Shown here piece by piece: positions 1,328 to 20,131 of a stretch of DNA of 22,214 nucleotides (positions within the stretch are counted from its first letter, which is position 1; each line of letters starts with the position of its first letter). Below the pieces are notes generated by a model that had not been told where the DNA came from, made no database searches, and saw nothing but the letters and a program-made list of their open reading frames with translations. The position numbers and the translations under genes are program-made. Origin of the DNA: a virus; IMG/VR virus record IMGVR_UViG_3300042691_035364, positions 1-22,214 of that record; one strand, written 5' to 3'.

Positions 1328-2575
1328 ATGAGTTTTGATAATTCACAAAGTGCTGTAACTTCGGTACAAACTCCTGGAGCCAAACAACCAATGGGGTTTG
1401 GGATTGTATATTCCGTTATTTTAGATGAAAATCATCCCTACTTAAAAACAAGTGTTGGTGAGAGACAGATAGAAAAGCAAGGAGAGGCAGCTTATATGGG
1501 CGCTATACAATACAGAATCACAGGCCAACCAAGTACCGATGATGCATCGCTACCTGTAGCTTTTCCTTATGATAAAAATTTTAAAACAATACCATTAGTA
1601 AACGAATCCGTTGAAATACTTCAAAACAATGGTGTATCATATTATAGAAGAATTGGTTTGGAAAAAACACCAAACATAGATAGTAAAAAAACACTAATAT
1701 CCGAAACATTCCCACCAGAACAACAAGCTGATGATGTAAAGAAAAATTATAAAACTGTTCAAGAAACAGGAACCACAATGAGTAATGTCAATGAGGCATC
1801 TAAGTATGATAAATTTGGTGAATATTTTCAAGAAGAACCGGGAGTACATAAATTAAAATTATATGAAGGAGATAGTTTGATAGAAACTAGATTTGGACAA
1901 TCTCTTAGATTTTCTGGATTTAATAATTCTGAAAAAGTATTTTCACCAACAATTATATTCAGAAATAATGAAAATGCAGAATCTAAAAAGAAATTAATAA
2001 AACTACCAACTGAAGAAGATATAAATAGAGATGGTAGTATAATTGTTTTAGGTTCTAATCAATATCAATTACCATTCTTACCGGGAACAGTTGATGATAA
2101 AGGTTCATCTGATTTTGAAACAAAACCAAATACATTTAAAGGGTATCCATCGAAATTAATAGGAGACCAAATTTTAATAAATTCTGGTAGAGTTATAATT
2201 TCCGCAAAAAATGCAGAAATGATATTTTACTCAAAAAAGAATTACGGATTTATTTCAGATGGTGCAATGTCAATTGATAATAAATTGGGTATTGATGTAA
2301 CTGTTGGTGATAATATAAACGTAACGGCAGCTGATAGAGATATAAATTTTAATACATCAAATGGTAAGATAAATTTAGGTAACACAAAATTAGAACCATT
2401 AGTGAAGGGTGATAGTTGGGTTTCTTTGATGGAAGAATTGATAGATGCAATAGTGGCACAACAATATCTAACACCATCAGGACCATCAGCAACTGGACCT
2501 GTAAATAAACCAACATTTAATACAATAAAATCGAAGTTAAAATCGGTACTAAGTGAATTAAATAAAACATCTTAA
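1328..2575 (+). CDS. gp5: gp5-like baseplate hub / tail spike protein lacking a lysozyme domain, 415 aa
   Basis: This is the probable central spike of the tail. The N-terminal part (about 23-105) looks like the OB-fold of gp5/VgrG-type proteins: MGFGIVYSVILDENHPY, then PVAFPYDKNFKTIPLVNESV. RFGQSLRFSGF (about 188-198) is the conserved segment before the beta-helix in T4-like marine phage gp5 homologues. From about 275 to 355 short alternating strands (INSGRVIISAKNAEMIFYS, IDVTVGDNINVTAADRDINF) suit the triple-stranded beta-helix needle. The tail end (LVKGDSWVSLMEELIDAIVA, then a Pro/Ser/Thr-rich stretch) is also typical. T4 gp5 (575 aa) carries a lysozyme between OB-fold and helix. I see none here, and the two M15 peptidase genes immediately downstream may supply that function. 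It starts one base after the preceding stop codon and ends two bases before the next gene. Confidence 0.85.
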   Translation: MSFDNSQSAVTSVQTPGAKQPMGFGIVYSVILDENHPYLKTSVGERQIEKQGEAAYMGAIQYRITGQPSTDDASLPVAFPYDKNFKTIPLVNESVEILQNNGVSYYRRIGLEKTPNIDSKKTLISETFPPEQQADDVKKNYKTVQETGTTMSNVNEASKYDKFGEYFQEEPGVHKLKLYEGDSLIETRFGQSLRFSGFNNSEKVFSPTIIFRNNENAESKKKLIKLPTEEDINRDGSIIVLGSNQYQLPFLPGTVDDKGSSDFETKPNTFKGYPSKLIGDQILINSGRVIISAKNAEMIFYSKKNYGFISDGAMSIDNKLGIDVTVGDNINVTAADRDINFNTSNGKINLGNTKLEPLVKGDSWVSLMEELIDAIVAQQYLTPSGPSATGPVNKPTFNTIKSKLKSVLSELNKTS

Positions 2576-2577
2576 AA

Positions 2578-3858
2578 ATGTCTTGGGATATATTCAAACA
2601 AAATATATTAAACGTTGTAACAAACCCAGAATCTATAAATTCAACGGATAGTGTTGCCGAACTATATGCAAAGGAGTATGATGCGGCCGTAAAAAGAGGT
2701 AGTGATAATCTATTTCAATCTAAAGTTAAAGTTGGTAACGTTGATAGTTTAAAATTATTCATTAAATCAGCATTAGATACCGGTGTATCTCAAAAAGAAC
2801 CATACGATTTAGTTGGTGAAATGGGAAAGGGTGTTTTAGCATATTGGGCTGGGGCTCAATTAGACCCAACATCAGTACCATCACCACCAACAACGCCACC
2901 TGCTACTGGAGCAGTTCAAAATTTACAAATAGTATCCATTGTTTGTACTAATAGTGGTCAATGGCAACAACCAACTTTAGGTGCCGGTAGTGAACCTGAT
3001 TTAAGAGAGGGTGAAACTGAAAACGATGATATGCCTGATACTGAATTTGGAGAAGCTGAAGAAATATTAGGAGAGATACCAGAAGATGAGGAGGCGGATG
3101 AACCTCAAGAATTAGTAGAAGAAGAAGCATCATTTTTCAATAAACAACCTGAAGAAGTGGAAATTAGTGGAGTAGACCCGGTAGGTGACCCACAAGTACT
3201 ACCACCACAACCAGCACCAATTCCCATCGATACATCAACCCCGCCAGAGTTACAAACACCTCGAACAGACCCAAATAACGCTCCTATTTCTGAAATTAAA
3301 GGTGCAAGAATAACTACAAATGTGGGTGCAACTGCACCACCACCTCCTCCTGGTTTGGCTAGTTTCGGAAATGGTAAAATACCAAAGGATAGACTTGGAA
3401 GTATTGATGCATCTTATGGTGGTGGTATATTACACATCGAAGCTGCCAAAATGTACAATAAACTGATAGCACAAGCCAAAAGAGAAGGAGTTAAATGGAG
3501 AGTATCATCTACATACAGAGATTATGCTGGACAAGTAGCATGTTTTGAGAAATACGGCTCGGGTAGTGCAGCTAAACCAGGGTTTTCTCCACATGGGTGG
3601 GGATTATCTTTGGATTTTGGAGAAATTGCTGGTATGCAACAGGCACGTGCAAAATCATTAGGAGTGGGTAGAGCAACACCAGGACCTGCTAGATATACAA
3701 GAGAAAACTCTAGACTATATCAATGGTTGGCAGTAAACGGACCCAAATATGGTTGGTATAATCCATATAGATTGGGAGATGGGACAGGAATGGATGAAGC
3801 TTGGCATTGGGAATATTGGGGATTTTATACATTGACACTTCAACAAAGACAGGCATAA
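2578..3858 (+). CDS. Hub-associated protein with C-terminal M15 (VanY-like) peptidase domain, 426 aa
   Basis: The C-terminal third (about 280-426) is a zinc D,D- or L,D-peptidase of the M15 family. STYRDYAGQ is the substrate-side motif. SPHGWGLSLD gives zinc ligands His339 and Asp346. DEAWHWEYW gives catalytic Glu407 and zinc ligand His410. All four key residues are present, so the enzyme should be active on peptidoglycan stem peptides. The N-terminal part has a short helical domain (1-90), then a long disordered linker: Pro/Thr-rich (about 97-110), strongly acidic (about 140-185) and Pro-rich again (205-250). No signal peptide is seen, which fits a virion-carried enzyme rather than a secreted lysin. 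It lies between the spike gene and a related M15 gene, suggesting that it is mounted on the tail hub and opens the wall during DNA injection. The virion location is inferred; an alternative is a lysis endolysin. Confidence 0.88.
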   Translation: MSWDIFKQNILNVVTNPESINSTDSVAELYAKEYDAAVKRGSDNLFQSKVKVGNVDSLKLFIKSALDTGVSQKEPYDLVGEMGKGVLAYWAGAQLDPTSVPSPPTTPPATGAVQNLQIVSIVCTNSGQWQQPTLGAGSEPDLREGETENDDMPDTEFGEAEEILGEIPEDEEADEPQELVEEEASFFNKQPEEVEISGVDPVGDPQVLPPQPAPIPIDTSTPPELQTPRTDPNNAPISEIKGARITTNVGATAPPPPPGLASFGNGKIPKDRLGSIDASYGGGILHIEAAKMYNKLIAQAKREGVKWRVSSTYRDYAGQVACFEKYGSGSAAKPGFSPHGWGLSLDFGEIAGMQQARAKSLGVGRATPGPARYTRENSRLYQWLAVNGPKYGWYNPYRLGDGTGMDEAWHWEYWGFYTLTLQQRQA

Positions 3859-3859
3859 T

Positions 3860-4903
3860 ATGGGAGCTATACAACCAACTAAAAATCATAAATTAATAAT
3901 TGATGAGTTCATCAGTTACGCTCAGCAACATTTGAGTACTGTTAGTGGTATTGTAAATACTATATCTACATATCCCCCACTAAATACACCTGGCCCCGGT
4001 ATAGTTAATTGGTCTGGTTATAGTGTACAAAAAGGTTTGGATGATTTAAATGAAGATGAAAGGGAGGCGGATGCTATTCAACAGGATATTGAAGAAGAAT
4101 ATCCAGCAAATCAAGCTATATATGAAGCTGAATTCGCTACAGAAGATGAAGCTATGGAAAATAATAGTAATATAAGCCAAGAGGAAGCCTTTTTTAGTGT
4201 AAAGCAATATAATAGTGAAGTTGGTAGAGTAGATGAAGTGACAGATGCTCAAGTACTCACCGATACCGCACCACCGGTGGCTTTCACAGGTTCATTTAAT
4301 CCACCCGAATTGGATTCACCACAAGGAAATCAGATAAATCAAGGAGGTTCATTACCAGTTGCTAGAGGTGATTTGGCATTATTTAAATTATGTGGAAATG
4401 GTATATGGCCAGCTTTGGGTACTGCACCAAATTTTGAAGTAAATAGGGTTGAATCTGGAAAGTGTAATAGATATTGGTATAAAGTAAATAAAGAATATAT
4501 GGTAAAAAATTGTACCGAAATAATGTTTCCTACCGCAAAAGGTGATAAAAAGATTTTAGTACATAAAAATTTGGCAGCAATAGTAAAACCCGCTATTGCA
4601 GCAATAAAAGCACAAGGGTTGCAGAAATATATAGAAAATTGTGGTGGAGGGCTTGCAGTTAGAAATGTTACTTGTGGTGCAAGATTATCAAACCATAGTT
4701 GGGGAACTGCCATAGATATGAATACTATAAAATATGGATATGGTACTAGTTTTAAATCCGATGGTATTTATGAAGGTAAAACAAAAGTACGAGATTTGAA
4801 TGAATTTGATAGAGGATTTTTAAGAGTAGCATCCATATTTAGAGCACAAGGAATGACTTGGTTAAGTACTAATGACCCAATGCACGTATCGATATATGAA
4901 TAG
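3860..4903 (+). CDS. Second hub-associated M15 peptidase (endolysin T5-like active site), 347 aa
   Basis: The C-terminal domain (about 225-347) has SNHSWGTAIDMN with zinc ligands His279 and Asp286, and DPMHVSI with Asp339 as probable catalytic acid and His342 as third ligand. The D-x-x-H ending is like the L-alanyl-D-glutamate peptidase of phage T5, unlike the E-x-x-H of the preceding gene, so the two may cut different peptide bonds. The N-terminal half parallels the upstream protein: GPGIVNWSGYSV (45-56) matches GKGVLAYWAGAQL, and an acidic linker with EEAFFSVKQ...TDAQVL (108-133) matches EEASFFNKQ...GDPQVL. I infer a tandem duplication followed by divergence of the enzyme domain. Four cysteines (C178, C198, C219, C262 or close by) lie in or before the domain. 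It starts one base after the previous stop codon (TAATATG), implying coupling. Virion hub location is inferred. Confidence 0.86.
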   Translation: MGAIQPTKNHKLIIDEFISYAQQHLSTVSGIVNTISTYPPLNTPGPGIVNWSGYSVQKGLDDLNEDEREADAIQQDIEEEYPANQAIYEAEFATEDEAMENNSNISQEEAFFSVKQYNSEVGRVDEVTDAQVLTDTAPPVAFTGSFNPPELDSPQGNQINQGGSLPVARGDLALFKLCGNGIWPALGTAPNFEVNRVESGKCNRYWYKVNKEYMVKNCTEIMFPTAKGDKKILVHKNLAAIVKPAIAAIKAQGLQKYIENCGGGLAVRNVTCGARLSNHSWGTAIDMNTIKYGYGTSFKSDGIYEGKTKVRDLNEFDRGFLRVASIFRAQGMTWLSTNDPMHVSIYE

Positions 4904-4988: not shown

Positions 4989-5489
4989 ATGAATACAGAC
5001 AAATTATTAAAAGCCATACAAATCCTAATTAAAGAGGAATTGAAAGAACAATTACCTGCATTAATTAAGGAAACTGTTAAGGCTGAGATGAAAAAACTGA
5101 TAGCAGAGGGTAAACAACCTGCTAAACCAAAAAATACTGGATTATCTATGGCTAAGGCTATGATGGAGGATGAAACTTTGGTAGAATCAATAGAATCGAA
5201 AGTGGTATCACAAAAACAATTCAGTAAAAACCCAATGATTAACCAAATTCTAAATGAAACCGCAATGGCACCTACAACTGGTGATGGCGGATTCAGAACT
5301 ATGAATTTTGGACAAGGTGATATGGGTTCAATTGTAGGTAGAACTGCTATTGCAGAAAAAATGGGTTATGGTGATTTAGCAAGAGGACCTCAACCAAGTG
5401 GATTGGGTGTAAATACTGGAGTACCTGAATTGGATAAGGCTTTGAATAGAGATTACTCTGAACTTGTAAAAAGATTTAATAAGAAGTAA
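4989..5489 (+). CDS. Conserved-looking virion-cluster protein of unknown function, 166 aa
   Basis: No family is recognised. Residues 1-45 form a Lys/Glu-rich amphipathic helix, probably a coiled coil (KEELKEQLPALIKETVKAEM). Residues 45-75 remain helical and charged. From about 85 on the protein is Gly/Met/Pro-rich and probably extended (TTGDGGFRTMNFGQGDMGS), ending in a short helix (ELDKALNRDYSELVKRFNKK). It is the first gene after a putative late promoter. Its stop codon overlaps the start of the gp25 gene by one base (TAATG), so the two are probably translated together. A baseplate assembly or hub-linking role is the likeliest inference from position alone. Confidence 0.82.
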   Translation: MNTDKLLKAIQILIKEELKEQLPALIKETVKAEMKKLIAEGKQPAKPKNTGLSMAKAMMEDETLVESIESKVVSQKQFSKNPMINQILNETAMAPTTGDGGFRTMNFGQGDMGSIVGRTAIAEKMGYGDLARGPQPSGLGVNTGVPELDKALNRDYSELVKRFNKK

Positions 5490-5917
5490 TGGCAATTGTA
5501 TTAGGACAAAAGTTAGTACAAGATACGAAAAAATTTGATGATTTTGCGATAGGTATAACTTTGCCAATTCGAATTGGTAACACTGCTTTTAATCAAAGTT
5601 TCAAAACAGAAGAGCAGGCTAGTTCTAATATAAAAAATTTATTATTAACAAAAAAAGGTGAAAGAATAATGCAACCTAATTTTGGTAGTGGCCTACAAGA
5701 ATTATTATTTGAATTTAATGATGATTCATTAGCTGAAAAAATAGAAGATACTGTAACATCAGCAATGGAAAATTGGTTACCATATATAAGCGTTGACCAA
5801 ATCGATGTAGTTGCAAGTGATTTAGATAAAGATAATAACATTGTAAATGTATCAATTAAATTTAGAGTTTTAGGAAATCCAGAATTAAATACAGTCACCT
5901 TTAATGTAGGTGCATAA
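5489..5917 (+). CDS. gp25: Baseplate wedge protein gp25 (gpW/gp25 family), 142 aa
   Basis: This is a structural protein that links the baseplate wedge to the tube and sheath in contractile injection systems. The sequence shows the family signature: an N-terminal segment with DDFAIGITLPI, then SSNIKNLLLTKKGERIMQPNFGSGL (about 44-68), with the E-R-x-x-x-P-x-F-G-S-G-L core, then ELLFEF and a helix before a C-terminal two-strand region ending in VTFNV. The length agrees with T4 gp25 (132 aa) and relatives. The older label 'lysozyme' for this family is not supported by a catalytic motif here. It precedes the gp6 gene by 11 bases, the usual order in contractile-tail clusters. Confidence 0.95.
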   Translation: MAIVLGQKLVQDTKKFDDFAIGITLPIRIGNTAFNQSFKTEEQASSNIKNLLLTKKGERIMQPNFGSGLQELLFEFNDDSLAEKIEDTVTSAMENWLPYISVDQIDVVASDLDKDNNIVNVSIKFRVLGNPELNTVTFNVGA

Positions 5918-5928
5918 TATAATAGAAT

Positions 5929-7965
5929 ATGTCAGTAACAATTACAAATAGAAATTTTAAAAATAAAGGAAAAGATGTAAAATATCTTAATAAAGATTTT
6001 GCTTCATTTAGAAACAATCTAATTGAATTTGCAAAAACTTATTTCCCAAAAACATATTCGGATTTTAACGAATCATCTCCTGGTATGATGTTTATCGAAA
6101 TGGCATCTTATATAGGAGATTCATTATCATATTATATTGATGATACATTAAAAGAGTCATTAATGACTTATGCAGAAGACCCGCAAAGTGTTTTAGCATT
6201 ATCACAATACTTAGGATACAGACCTAAAGTGACTTCACCAGCGATAACAACATTAAGTGTATATCAATTAGTACCATCTATTGGAACTGGTATTAATAAT
6301 AAACCTGATGAAAAGTTTTATTTACGAATAAAGGAAGGTATGTTGAGTAAATCAACAACAGCTGGTATAATTTTCAGAACAACCGATATAGTTGATTTTT
6401 CTGATGAAACTGGTAGAGAGATAACAATATACCAAAGAGATGCAAATACAGGAGAACCTCTATTTTATTTAGTTAAAAAATATATACAAGCTTTATCTGG
6501 TGAATTGTTACAAAGAGAAGTAACATTTGATGCATATTCTCCTTTTCAAAAAATAGATTTACCTGAAACTAATATAATTCAGATATATGATGTAAGAGAT
6601 TCTAATGGAAATAAATGGTATGAAGTTCCATATCTTGCACAGGAGATGGTTTATTTGGATTCACCAAATAATGAAACAAATGACCCAGATTTATATCAAT
6701 TTAAATCAACTGTACCATTTGTATTAAAAACAATTAAAACGTCAAAAAGATTTGTAACGAAAGTAAATCAGGACAATACTACATCTATACAATTTGGAGC
6801 AGGTGATTCATCTGCATCGGATGAACAATTAATTCCAAATCTTAAAAATGTTGGATTGGGATTACCTAATTCTATTAGCAGATTAGAAGAATCTTTTGAC
6901 CCAACCAATTTCTTAAAAACAAAAACATATGGAACTTCTCCATCAAACACAACTATGACTGTAAAGTATATGATTGGTGGTGGCGTGGCTTCAAATATAC
7001 CTGTTGGTGAGTTAGTTAGAGTTAATACAATTGAATTTGATGAAGATACCGAATCACTTAATGCATCGGAATTAGCAATATACAATACAGTTAAAAATTC
7101 AATTGCAATTGATAATGAAGTACCTGCAACCGGTGGTAGAGGTGCTGAAAGTTTGGAAGAAATAAGACAAAATTCATTAGCAAACTTTGGTTCTCAAAAT
7201 AGAGCAGTAACTGCAAATGATTATCAAGTTAGAGCATTGTCAATGCCACCAAAATTTGGCGCAGTTGCAAAATCATTTGCAATAGCAGATGGTACGTTGG
7301 ATAATAACTCACCTGCATCTATATTAGCATCACCAAACAACTTACAAGAGTTTACCGATTTGGTTATGAGTTTTGTATCAAAACCAGACGATGAAGAACC
7401 AACCCAACAATCAATAAAAGAAGAAATAACTAAATTCCTTATTGGTAAAACTTCAAATGAAAATGAAAAAAATAATCCATTTGCAATAAATTTATATTTG
7501 CTGGGATATGATAATAATGGACATTTAACTAATCTTAATAGAGGAGTTAAAGAAAATTTAAAAACCTATATGAATGAATATAGATTATTGACCGATGGTA
7601 TTAATATGTTAGATGGATTTATTATTAATATTGGAATTGAATTTGAAATAATTGCATTTAGTAGTTATAACAAAAGTGAAGTTCTTACTAAGTGTATAAA
7701 TGAATTAAAACAATATTTTAGTATAGATAATTGGACGTTCAATCAAACAATTAATTTGAGCGAAGTTGAGTTATTAATAGCTAACGTTGAAGGAGTTTCA
7801 TCCGTTCCAATGGTAAAGATAACAAATAAGTGTGGTGGTAAATATTCACCAAACTCATATAATATAGAAGCGGCAACTAAAGATAAGATTGTATATCCAT
7901 CATTAGACCCATCGGTTTTTGAAATTAAATTTCCGGATTCGGATATAAAAGGTAGAGTAAGATAA
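5929..7965 (+). CDS. gp6: Baseplate wedge protein gp6 (baseplate J family), 678 aa
   Basis: This is a main ring-forming wedge component. The N-terminal part (about 18-105) is the family hallmark: DFASFRNNLIEFAKTYFP, then ESSPGMMFIEMASYIGDSL, YYIDDTLKESLMTYA and LGYRPK. The central baseplate-J core is clear: GGRGAESLEEIRQNS, FGSQNRAVTANDYQVRA and the following FGAVAKSFA, around residues 400-450. The C-terminal region carries a repeat of the alpha/beta fold (INIGIEFEIIAFSSYNK, then LKQYFSIDNWTFNQTINLSE, VEGVSSVPMVKI). Length is close to T4 gp6 (660 aa). Its stop overlaps the next start by one base (TAATG). It should bind gp25 and the adjacent wedge proteins in the inner baseplate. Confidence 0.94.
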   Translation: MSVTITNRNFKNKGKDVKYLNKDFASFRNNLIEFAKTYFPKTYSDFNESSPGMMFIEMASYIGDSLSYYIDDTLKESLMTYAEDPQSVLALSQYLGYRPKVTSPAITTLSVYQLVPSIGTGINNKPDEKFYLRIKEGMLSKSTTAGIIFRTTDIVDFSDETGREITIYQRDANTGEPLFYLVKKYIQALSGELLQREVTFDAYSPFQKIDLPETNIIQIYDVRDSNGNKWYEVPYLAQEMVYLDSPNNETNDPDLYQFKSTVPFVLKTIKTSKRFVTKVNQDNTTSIQFGAGDSSASDEQLIPNLKNVGLGLPNSISRLEESFDPTNFLKTKTYGTSPSNTTMTVKYMIGGGVASNIPVGELVRVNTIEFDEDTESLNASELAIYNTVKNSIAIDNEVPATGGRGAESLEEIRQNSLANFGSQNRAVTANDYQVRALSMPPKFGAVAKSFAIADGTLDNNSPASILASPNNLQEFTDLVMSFVSKPDDEEPTQQSIKEEITKFLIGKTSNENEKNNPFAINLYLLGYDNNGHLTNLNRGVKENLKTYMNEYRLLTDGINMLDGFIINIGIEFEIIAFSSYNKSEVLTKCINELKQYFSIDNWTFNQTINLSEVELLIANVEGVSSVPMVKITNKCGGKYSPNSYNIEAATKDKIVYPSLDPSVFEIKFPDSDIKGRVR

Positions 7966-19720: not shown

Positions 19721-20131
19721 ATGTCTTGGAAATTTAATGGAAATATTGTTACAGAAGAAAATACACCTGAAGGTGCGGTTGGGTTTGTCTATAAAATGAT
19801 ACATATCCCAACTGGTAAGTTTTATATTGGTAAAAAGCAACTTACTCAAACCCGCAGATTAAAACCTCTTAAGGGAAAGACTCGTAAGAGAGTTGTAAAG
19901 AAAGCATCTGATTGGGAGAAATACTATTCATCAAACGAATGGATTAAATCCGAAGTAAAGGCTGGAAATGCTGAACACTTTGAAAGAGAAATCATTCAAT
20001 TTTGTTTTTCAAAGAAATCCCTATCATATTACGAAATAAAATGGCAGTTTCATTACGATGTACTTGCCAACGAACAAGCAATAAACGAAAACCTTATGGG
20101 AAAGTTCTTCCGTAGGGATATAATAAACTAA
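19721..20131 (+). CDS. SegE-like GIY-YIG endonuclease family protein, 136 aa
   Basis: The GIY-YIG core is seen as GFVYK (21-25) and KFYIGKKQ (33-40), separated by a short loop (MIHIPTG). After a basic stretch with several Arg/Lys (44-61), SDWEKYYSSNEWIKSEV (63-79) and REIIQFCFSKKSLSYYEIKW (89-108) match the domain found in T4 SegE-type proteins, including a probable catalytic Glu near 105. There is no separate DNA-binding module, so the protein is near minimal for this family. Known of the family: free-standing homing endonucleases cut DNA in related phages and spread with their flanks. Here it sits at the border between structural and replication genes. Homing activity is inferred; a general nuclease role is possible. 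Confidence 0.8.
   Translation: MSWKFNGNIVTEENTPEGAVGFVYKMIHIPTGKFYIGKKQLTQTRRLKPLKGKTRKRVVKKASDWEKYYSSNEWIKSEVKAGNAEHFEREIIQFCFSKKSLSYYEIKWQFHYDVLANEQAINENLMGKFFRRDIIN

Follow-up and report, generated by a model that had tools for sequence, protein, structure and literature searches.

Exchangeable putative wall hydrolases behind constant modules in the baseplate region of a T4-superfamily virus

Phages with tail-associated lysins, or with a pair of hydrolases beside the spike, are already known in kind. In T4, gp5 is both hub subunit and tail lysozyme: its gene lies among the baseplate genes before gp6, its single GH24 domain sits inside an OB/beta-helix spike protein, and it opens the wall locally at entry. 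In the Kyanoviridae, "endolysin" tail proteins (phrog_790/phrog_1200) are encoded by adjacent genes near those for the baseplate hub and spike (CYXG_00218/219 in S-SSM4 and SCREM1_47/48 in S-CREM1), one bearing a VanY domain and the other annotated as NlpC/P60 or endolysin; their carriers, of 800-1000 aa, are related to one another by paralogy (28% identity, E=3e-19) and do not resemble the modules described below. The VanY family found in our locus also lies near the C terminus of a large protein in Flavobacterium phage immuto 238 and in one contig of our collection (L042), but there the carriers are different (938 and 1296 aa) and bear one enzyme only, and a PHROG search with the immuto carrier returned no match. 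Microcystis phage Mel-JY01 has a GH19-type gene at the same place, without these modules. As for the enzymes themselves, the LAS/M15 peptidases LdcB, YodJ, Ply500, and ChiX share His, Asp, and His as zinc ligands together with an acidic catalytic residue, the catalytic side chain of LAS enzymes generally being normally an acid (PMC5778951), but these are bacterial enzymes or endolysins that lack docking modules. A likeness in mode of working, with no claim of sequence relation, may be drawn to the VgrG/PAAR spikes of type VI secretion systems, in which a constant spike-docking part takes interchangeable cargo (PMC4067218, PMC6688995), although that cargo is a bacterial secretion cargo. Among the systems that we found described in open-licence papers, none has a docking domain split in two and cassettes exchanged behind it, as proposed here.

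The window, by which we mean the whole stretch of DNA analysed here, is a 22.2-kb virus contig (22,214 nucleotides). Two intact open reading frames on its plus strand, gene A (2578-3858, 426 aa) and gene B (3860-4903, 347 aa), are separated by 1 base, and 2 bases separate A from the preceding ORF. Downstream of B, on the same strand, follow genes for the baseplate wedge protein gp25 (5489-5917; PF04965, E=2.8e-16; phrog_261, E=7e-28) and for a gp6-like baseplate wedge protein (5929-7965; phrog_219, E=1e-16). The locus belongs to the tail and baseplate genes of a virus of the T4 superfamily and resembles that of T4 in placing wall hydrolases among the baseplate genes before gp6, but here the enzymes are borne by separate module proteins, and the neighbouring ORF (1328-2575, plus strand, 415 aa), which by position only corresponds to the central spike, has no recognised lysozyme or other enzyme domain. 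This ORF has homologues in immuto and Mel-JY01 (synteny and blastp); it found no match in Pfam, PHROG, or the PDB, and its comparison with T4 gp5 (hhalign, E=0.63) detected no homology. Its identification as gp5 by homology was dropped, as it matched neither T4 gp5 nor Gp5_OB; the original prediction had placed the pair at the tail hub, a location suggested by gene order but not supported by gp5 homology of this neighbour.

Two other parts of the window deserve mention. Upstream of the baseplate genes, positions 62-877 encode a 271-aa protein that is ~75-98% identical across most loci holding it, found no match in Pfam or PHROG, and by eye bears a likeness to Ntn-type hydrolases. Between the tail genes and a DNA primase gene, positions 19721-20131 encode a homing-endonuclease-like protein (phrog_447, phrog_314). 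A search of bacterial genome contigs found no relatives, and no host was therefore assigned.

Both A and B combine a structural part, presumably for docking, with a wall hydrolase and are encoded among tail genes. A begins with a constant N-terminal module (aa 1-130; 2578-2967), kept in relatives before different enzymes or none, followed by an acidic, proline-rich linker (aa 139-263; 2992-3366, the B-related part at ~3121-3285) and a VanY-type M15B peptidase domain (aa 285-415; 3430-3822; PF02557, E=1.5e-17, 64.1 bits against a curated cut-off of 25). B begins with a shorter constant module (aa 1-57; 3860-4030), which likewise precedes differing enzymes, followed by an acidic linker (aa 58-168; 4031-4363, the A-related part at ~4181-4345) and an M15_4 (M15C-like, or T5-endolysin-like) peptidase domain (aa 169-347; 4364-4903), whose Pfam core at 4679-4891 corresponds to a Peptidase_M15_4 match at residues 274-344 (PF13539, E=1.7e-6, 28.9 bits against a cut-off of 25). 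The profile searches thus uphold the prediction of two adjacent proteins with different M15-type enzyme domains. The catalytic residues had also been numbered correctly: A has the zinc ligands of the pattern HxxxxxxD...H and the catalytic glutamate (His339, Asp346, Glu407, and His410, invariant in 11 sequences), and B has His, Asp, and His as ligands with a catalytic aspartate (His279, Asp286, Asp339, and His342, invariant in 23 sequences). The M15C-like part of B (aa 169-347) was modelled with a pLDDT of ~70-94; the best PDB match of the whole protein B model in Foldseek was VanX (1r44), which was not significant (E=0.25), and two matches from a PDB profile search with the M15C family were discounted as chance.

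To place the pair in a broader perspective, we consider its relatives, which are viral contigs gathered with profiles of the A-module and the B-module; among 50,697 phage records, tblastn found neither module in a cultured phage. In distant relatives (L038-L041, L043, and L059), A-module and B-module are joined in one protein of 175-192 aa without an enzyme, and single modules also occur without enzymes (A alone with 137 aa in L030; B alone with 69 aa in L129 and L130). The AlphaFold2 model of a fused homologue is a confident single domain (pLDDT 94.1, pTM 0.88), in which the A half forms four helices and a long strand, and the B half forms a helix and a beta hairpin. Foldseek found no match to this model in the PDB and one good match in BFVD, a 182-aa protein of an uncultured phage (TM 0.91). 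When the window's protein B is modelled alone, residues 1-60, the B-module, reach a confidence of only ~30-43, as would be expected if the A half were needed, a weak indication because the alignment mixes A- and B-slot proteins. The models suggest that the B-module probably pairs with the A-module in this phage as well. The A-module alignment over all families was too divergent for a pattern search.

Across the relatives, the order of the modules and their neighbours is constant and the C-terminal part varies. At least eight enzyme types occur (VanY, M15C-like, M15_3-like, CHAP, CHAP-like, GH19, GH24, and M23; typed by Pfam, with M23, M15_3, and CHAP-like falling under the Pfam cut-offs), along with an "NNPGN" type without family assignment and others. 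Mapped onto a tree of gp25+gp6 from 103 loci, slot A needs a minimum of 30 state changes and slot B 25. These counts treat fused, empty, and unassigned slots as states and give no direction, and the tree was built quickly, with SH-aLRT as its only branch support. Comparisons of close genomes locate the exchange: similarity of the DNA is lost where the module ends, or close to it, and is restored at the stop codon. Thus, a contig identical to the window in this region (L001) and its relative L011 share ~80% DNA identity through A and up to codon 57 of B (window position 4030), lose it over B's linker and enzyme, and show it again downstream of B; between L143 and L140, identity is 95% up to the A-module end and 96% from just past the B stop; and the A cassette, that is, linker plus enzyme, is the sole difference between L159 and L099. 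Enzymes have been exchanged many times at both slots while the structural modules were retained, which suggests that the enzymes act as interchangeable tools with which the host wall is opened.

Several loci depart from the two-gene arrangement. In the 133-kb genome G001 (L098/L102), A and B are separated by an additional gene whose product has a CHAP domain behind a short stretch resembling the beginning of A, so that the three enzymes are M15C-like, CHAP, and GH19. Three slot-A proteins (L026:7242-8918, L089:1536-3338, and L170:2903-4819) have, next to VanY, an extra domain of ~170-200 aa whose GxSxG-like motif is perhaps that of an esterase; no Pfam match was found for this domain in L026 and L089. 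A frameshift interrupts the A gene at L024:2547-3751 and at L028:8001-9585, reflecting either sequencing error or true loss; one of these contigs is almost identical to the window.

We propose that A and B are baseplate-region structural proteins bearing cell-wall hydrolases. A 1-130 and B 1-57 would together make up one small structural domain, each supplying half of what distant relatives encode as one protein, and the A+B pair would probably assemble beside the central spike. From each half, a flexible, acidic linker would lead to a peptidoglycan hydrolase, VanY-type M15 on A and M15C-like on B, with linker and enzyme forming an exchangeable cassette that is swapped by recombination at the module end. 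At injection, the enzymes would probably open the host wall locally. Judged from sequence, A and B are most likely a wall-opening set, and we consider this explanation as a whole, with both proteins in the virion and acting at entry, reasonably probable.

The strongest competitor to this explanation, which we nevertheless judge unlikely, is that the enzymes are endolysins that serve lysis and came to lie in the baseplate operon by chance, the modules doing something else. It draws support from the enzyme types, which match those of endolysins (phrog_17001, GH19, CHAP), and from the 133-kb relative G001, in which the hydrolase families that we searched for occur in the slot only. Against it, the structural genes are tightly packed, and an enzyme-free relative of 252 kb (G002) has a separate Amidase_2 gene. 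The entry role is favoured because the modules persist among the baseplate genes even where no enzyme is attached, and also because cyanophages have this VanY type fused to large proteins encoded next to hub or spike genes of the baseplate, with a further carrier in immuto.

Somewhat less probable still is that the pair arose as a tandem duplicate of one gene and was kept because its enzymes cut two different bonds, as the original prediction had it. The relatedness of the linkers, on which that view drew (EEASFFNKQ...DPQVL against EEAFFSVKQ...DAQVL), was confirmed: the acidic linkers of A and B align with a local score of 101, compared with 35 +/- 6 for shuffled sequences (reached by 0 of 3000 shuffles), and their non-acidic part alone (EEASFF.../EEAFF...) scores 74 compared with 27 (again 0 of 3000). 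This relatedness is limited to the linker, where the whole BLASTP match between the two proteins falls (E=5e-8, A 141-234). Aligned with each other, A 1-130 and B 1-57 score 27 compared with 24.7 for shuffled sequences, a value reached by 871 of 3000 shuffles, and the profile-profile comparison of the modules is equally negative (hhalign, E=0.16, probability 0.4%). In the confident fused model, the GxG(V/I)-(Y/N)W-x-G block, formerly taken as a sign of homology, is helical where it comes from the A half (helix 79-91) but belongs to a strand (173-182) in the B half, and we therefore attribute the likeness to chance letters. Whole-gene duplication was accordingly rejected: the A-module and the B-module are different halves of one structural protein and do not look like paralogues. 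Cyanophages S-SSM4 and S-CREM1 do have two tail proteins that are real paralogues and carry different hydrolases, and some relatives of the window hold near-identical cassettes in both slots, both of which speak for duplication; the failure of the modules to align, their nature as two different halves of one domain, and the chance frequency of same-family pairs (below) speak against it.

The related linkers can instead be understood from copying between the slots, as linker relatedness in neighbouring genes can stem from cassette copying instead of gene duplication. Linker and enzyme together have been copied between A and B in several genomes (87% DNA identity over 892 bp in L010; 86% in L096 and L135, 85% in L086, and 72% in L089), the copies running from shortly past the modules to near the stop codon. 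Where the two enzymes differ, the A and B linkers of the same genome still score 70.9 against each other, compared with 48.0 (sd 5.1) for permuted pairs (0 of 20000 permutations), a comparison in which kinship among genomes partly remains. Patches of linker DNA are common to A and B (98.8% over 85 bp in L165; 92% over 144 bp in L174), and such common DNA may assist the copying.

Although the prediction of a two-enzyme wall-opening set holds in that two different M15-type enzymes are fused to baseplate-region proteins, the principle that the set attacks two bonds is not supported. Among 77 two-gene sets, 9 have the same enzyme family in both slots, compared with 6.7 +/- 2.2 expected if the slots were independent; since same-family pairs thus occur at about chance frequency, "two different bonds" is no rule. 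In the six genomes checked, the members of such pairs are 86-96% identical over their last 160 residues. The slots themselves differ, with GH19/GH24 glycosidases in 42 of 77 B slots and in none of the 77 A slots: slot A is nearly always of peptidase or amidase type, and complementarity of the pair is not enforced. Nor is the bond fixed by the choice of Glu or Asp, as had been supposed, because the VanY profile matches LdcB-type carboxypeptidases (4mph, 4jid, and 4ox3) and the Ala-Glu endopeptidase Ply500 (2vo9) alike.

That the exchange pattern is an artefact of chimeric metagenome assemblies is very improbable, since, even though every module-bearing relative is an uncultured contig and the A gene is broken in L024 and L028, the VanY plus M15C-like architecture of the window recurs in seven distinct sets from separate assemblies (other architectures in several too), and DNA identity between copied cassettes has fallen to 85-87%, unlike the outcome of assembly error.

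Taken with the comparisons above, the preferred explanation, in which the pair opens the wall at entry, would add to the known tail lysins a baseplate domain of a fold new to the PDB, split into two pairing docking proteins whose hydrolase cassettes, drawn from a pool of at least eight types, are swapped in place at the module edge and copied from slot to slot by way of short homologous linkers, with a turnover like that of receptor-binding proteins, a description that we hold with confidence slightly above even. Host-range studies of tailed phages mostly consider tail fibres. If the docking domain stays constant while entry enzymes are swapped so often, the chemistry of the wall may add a further layer to host adaptation.
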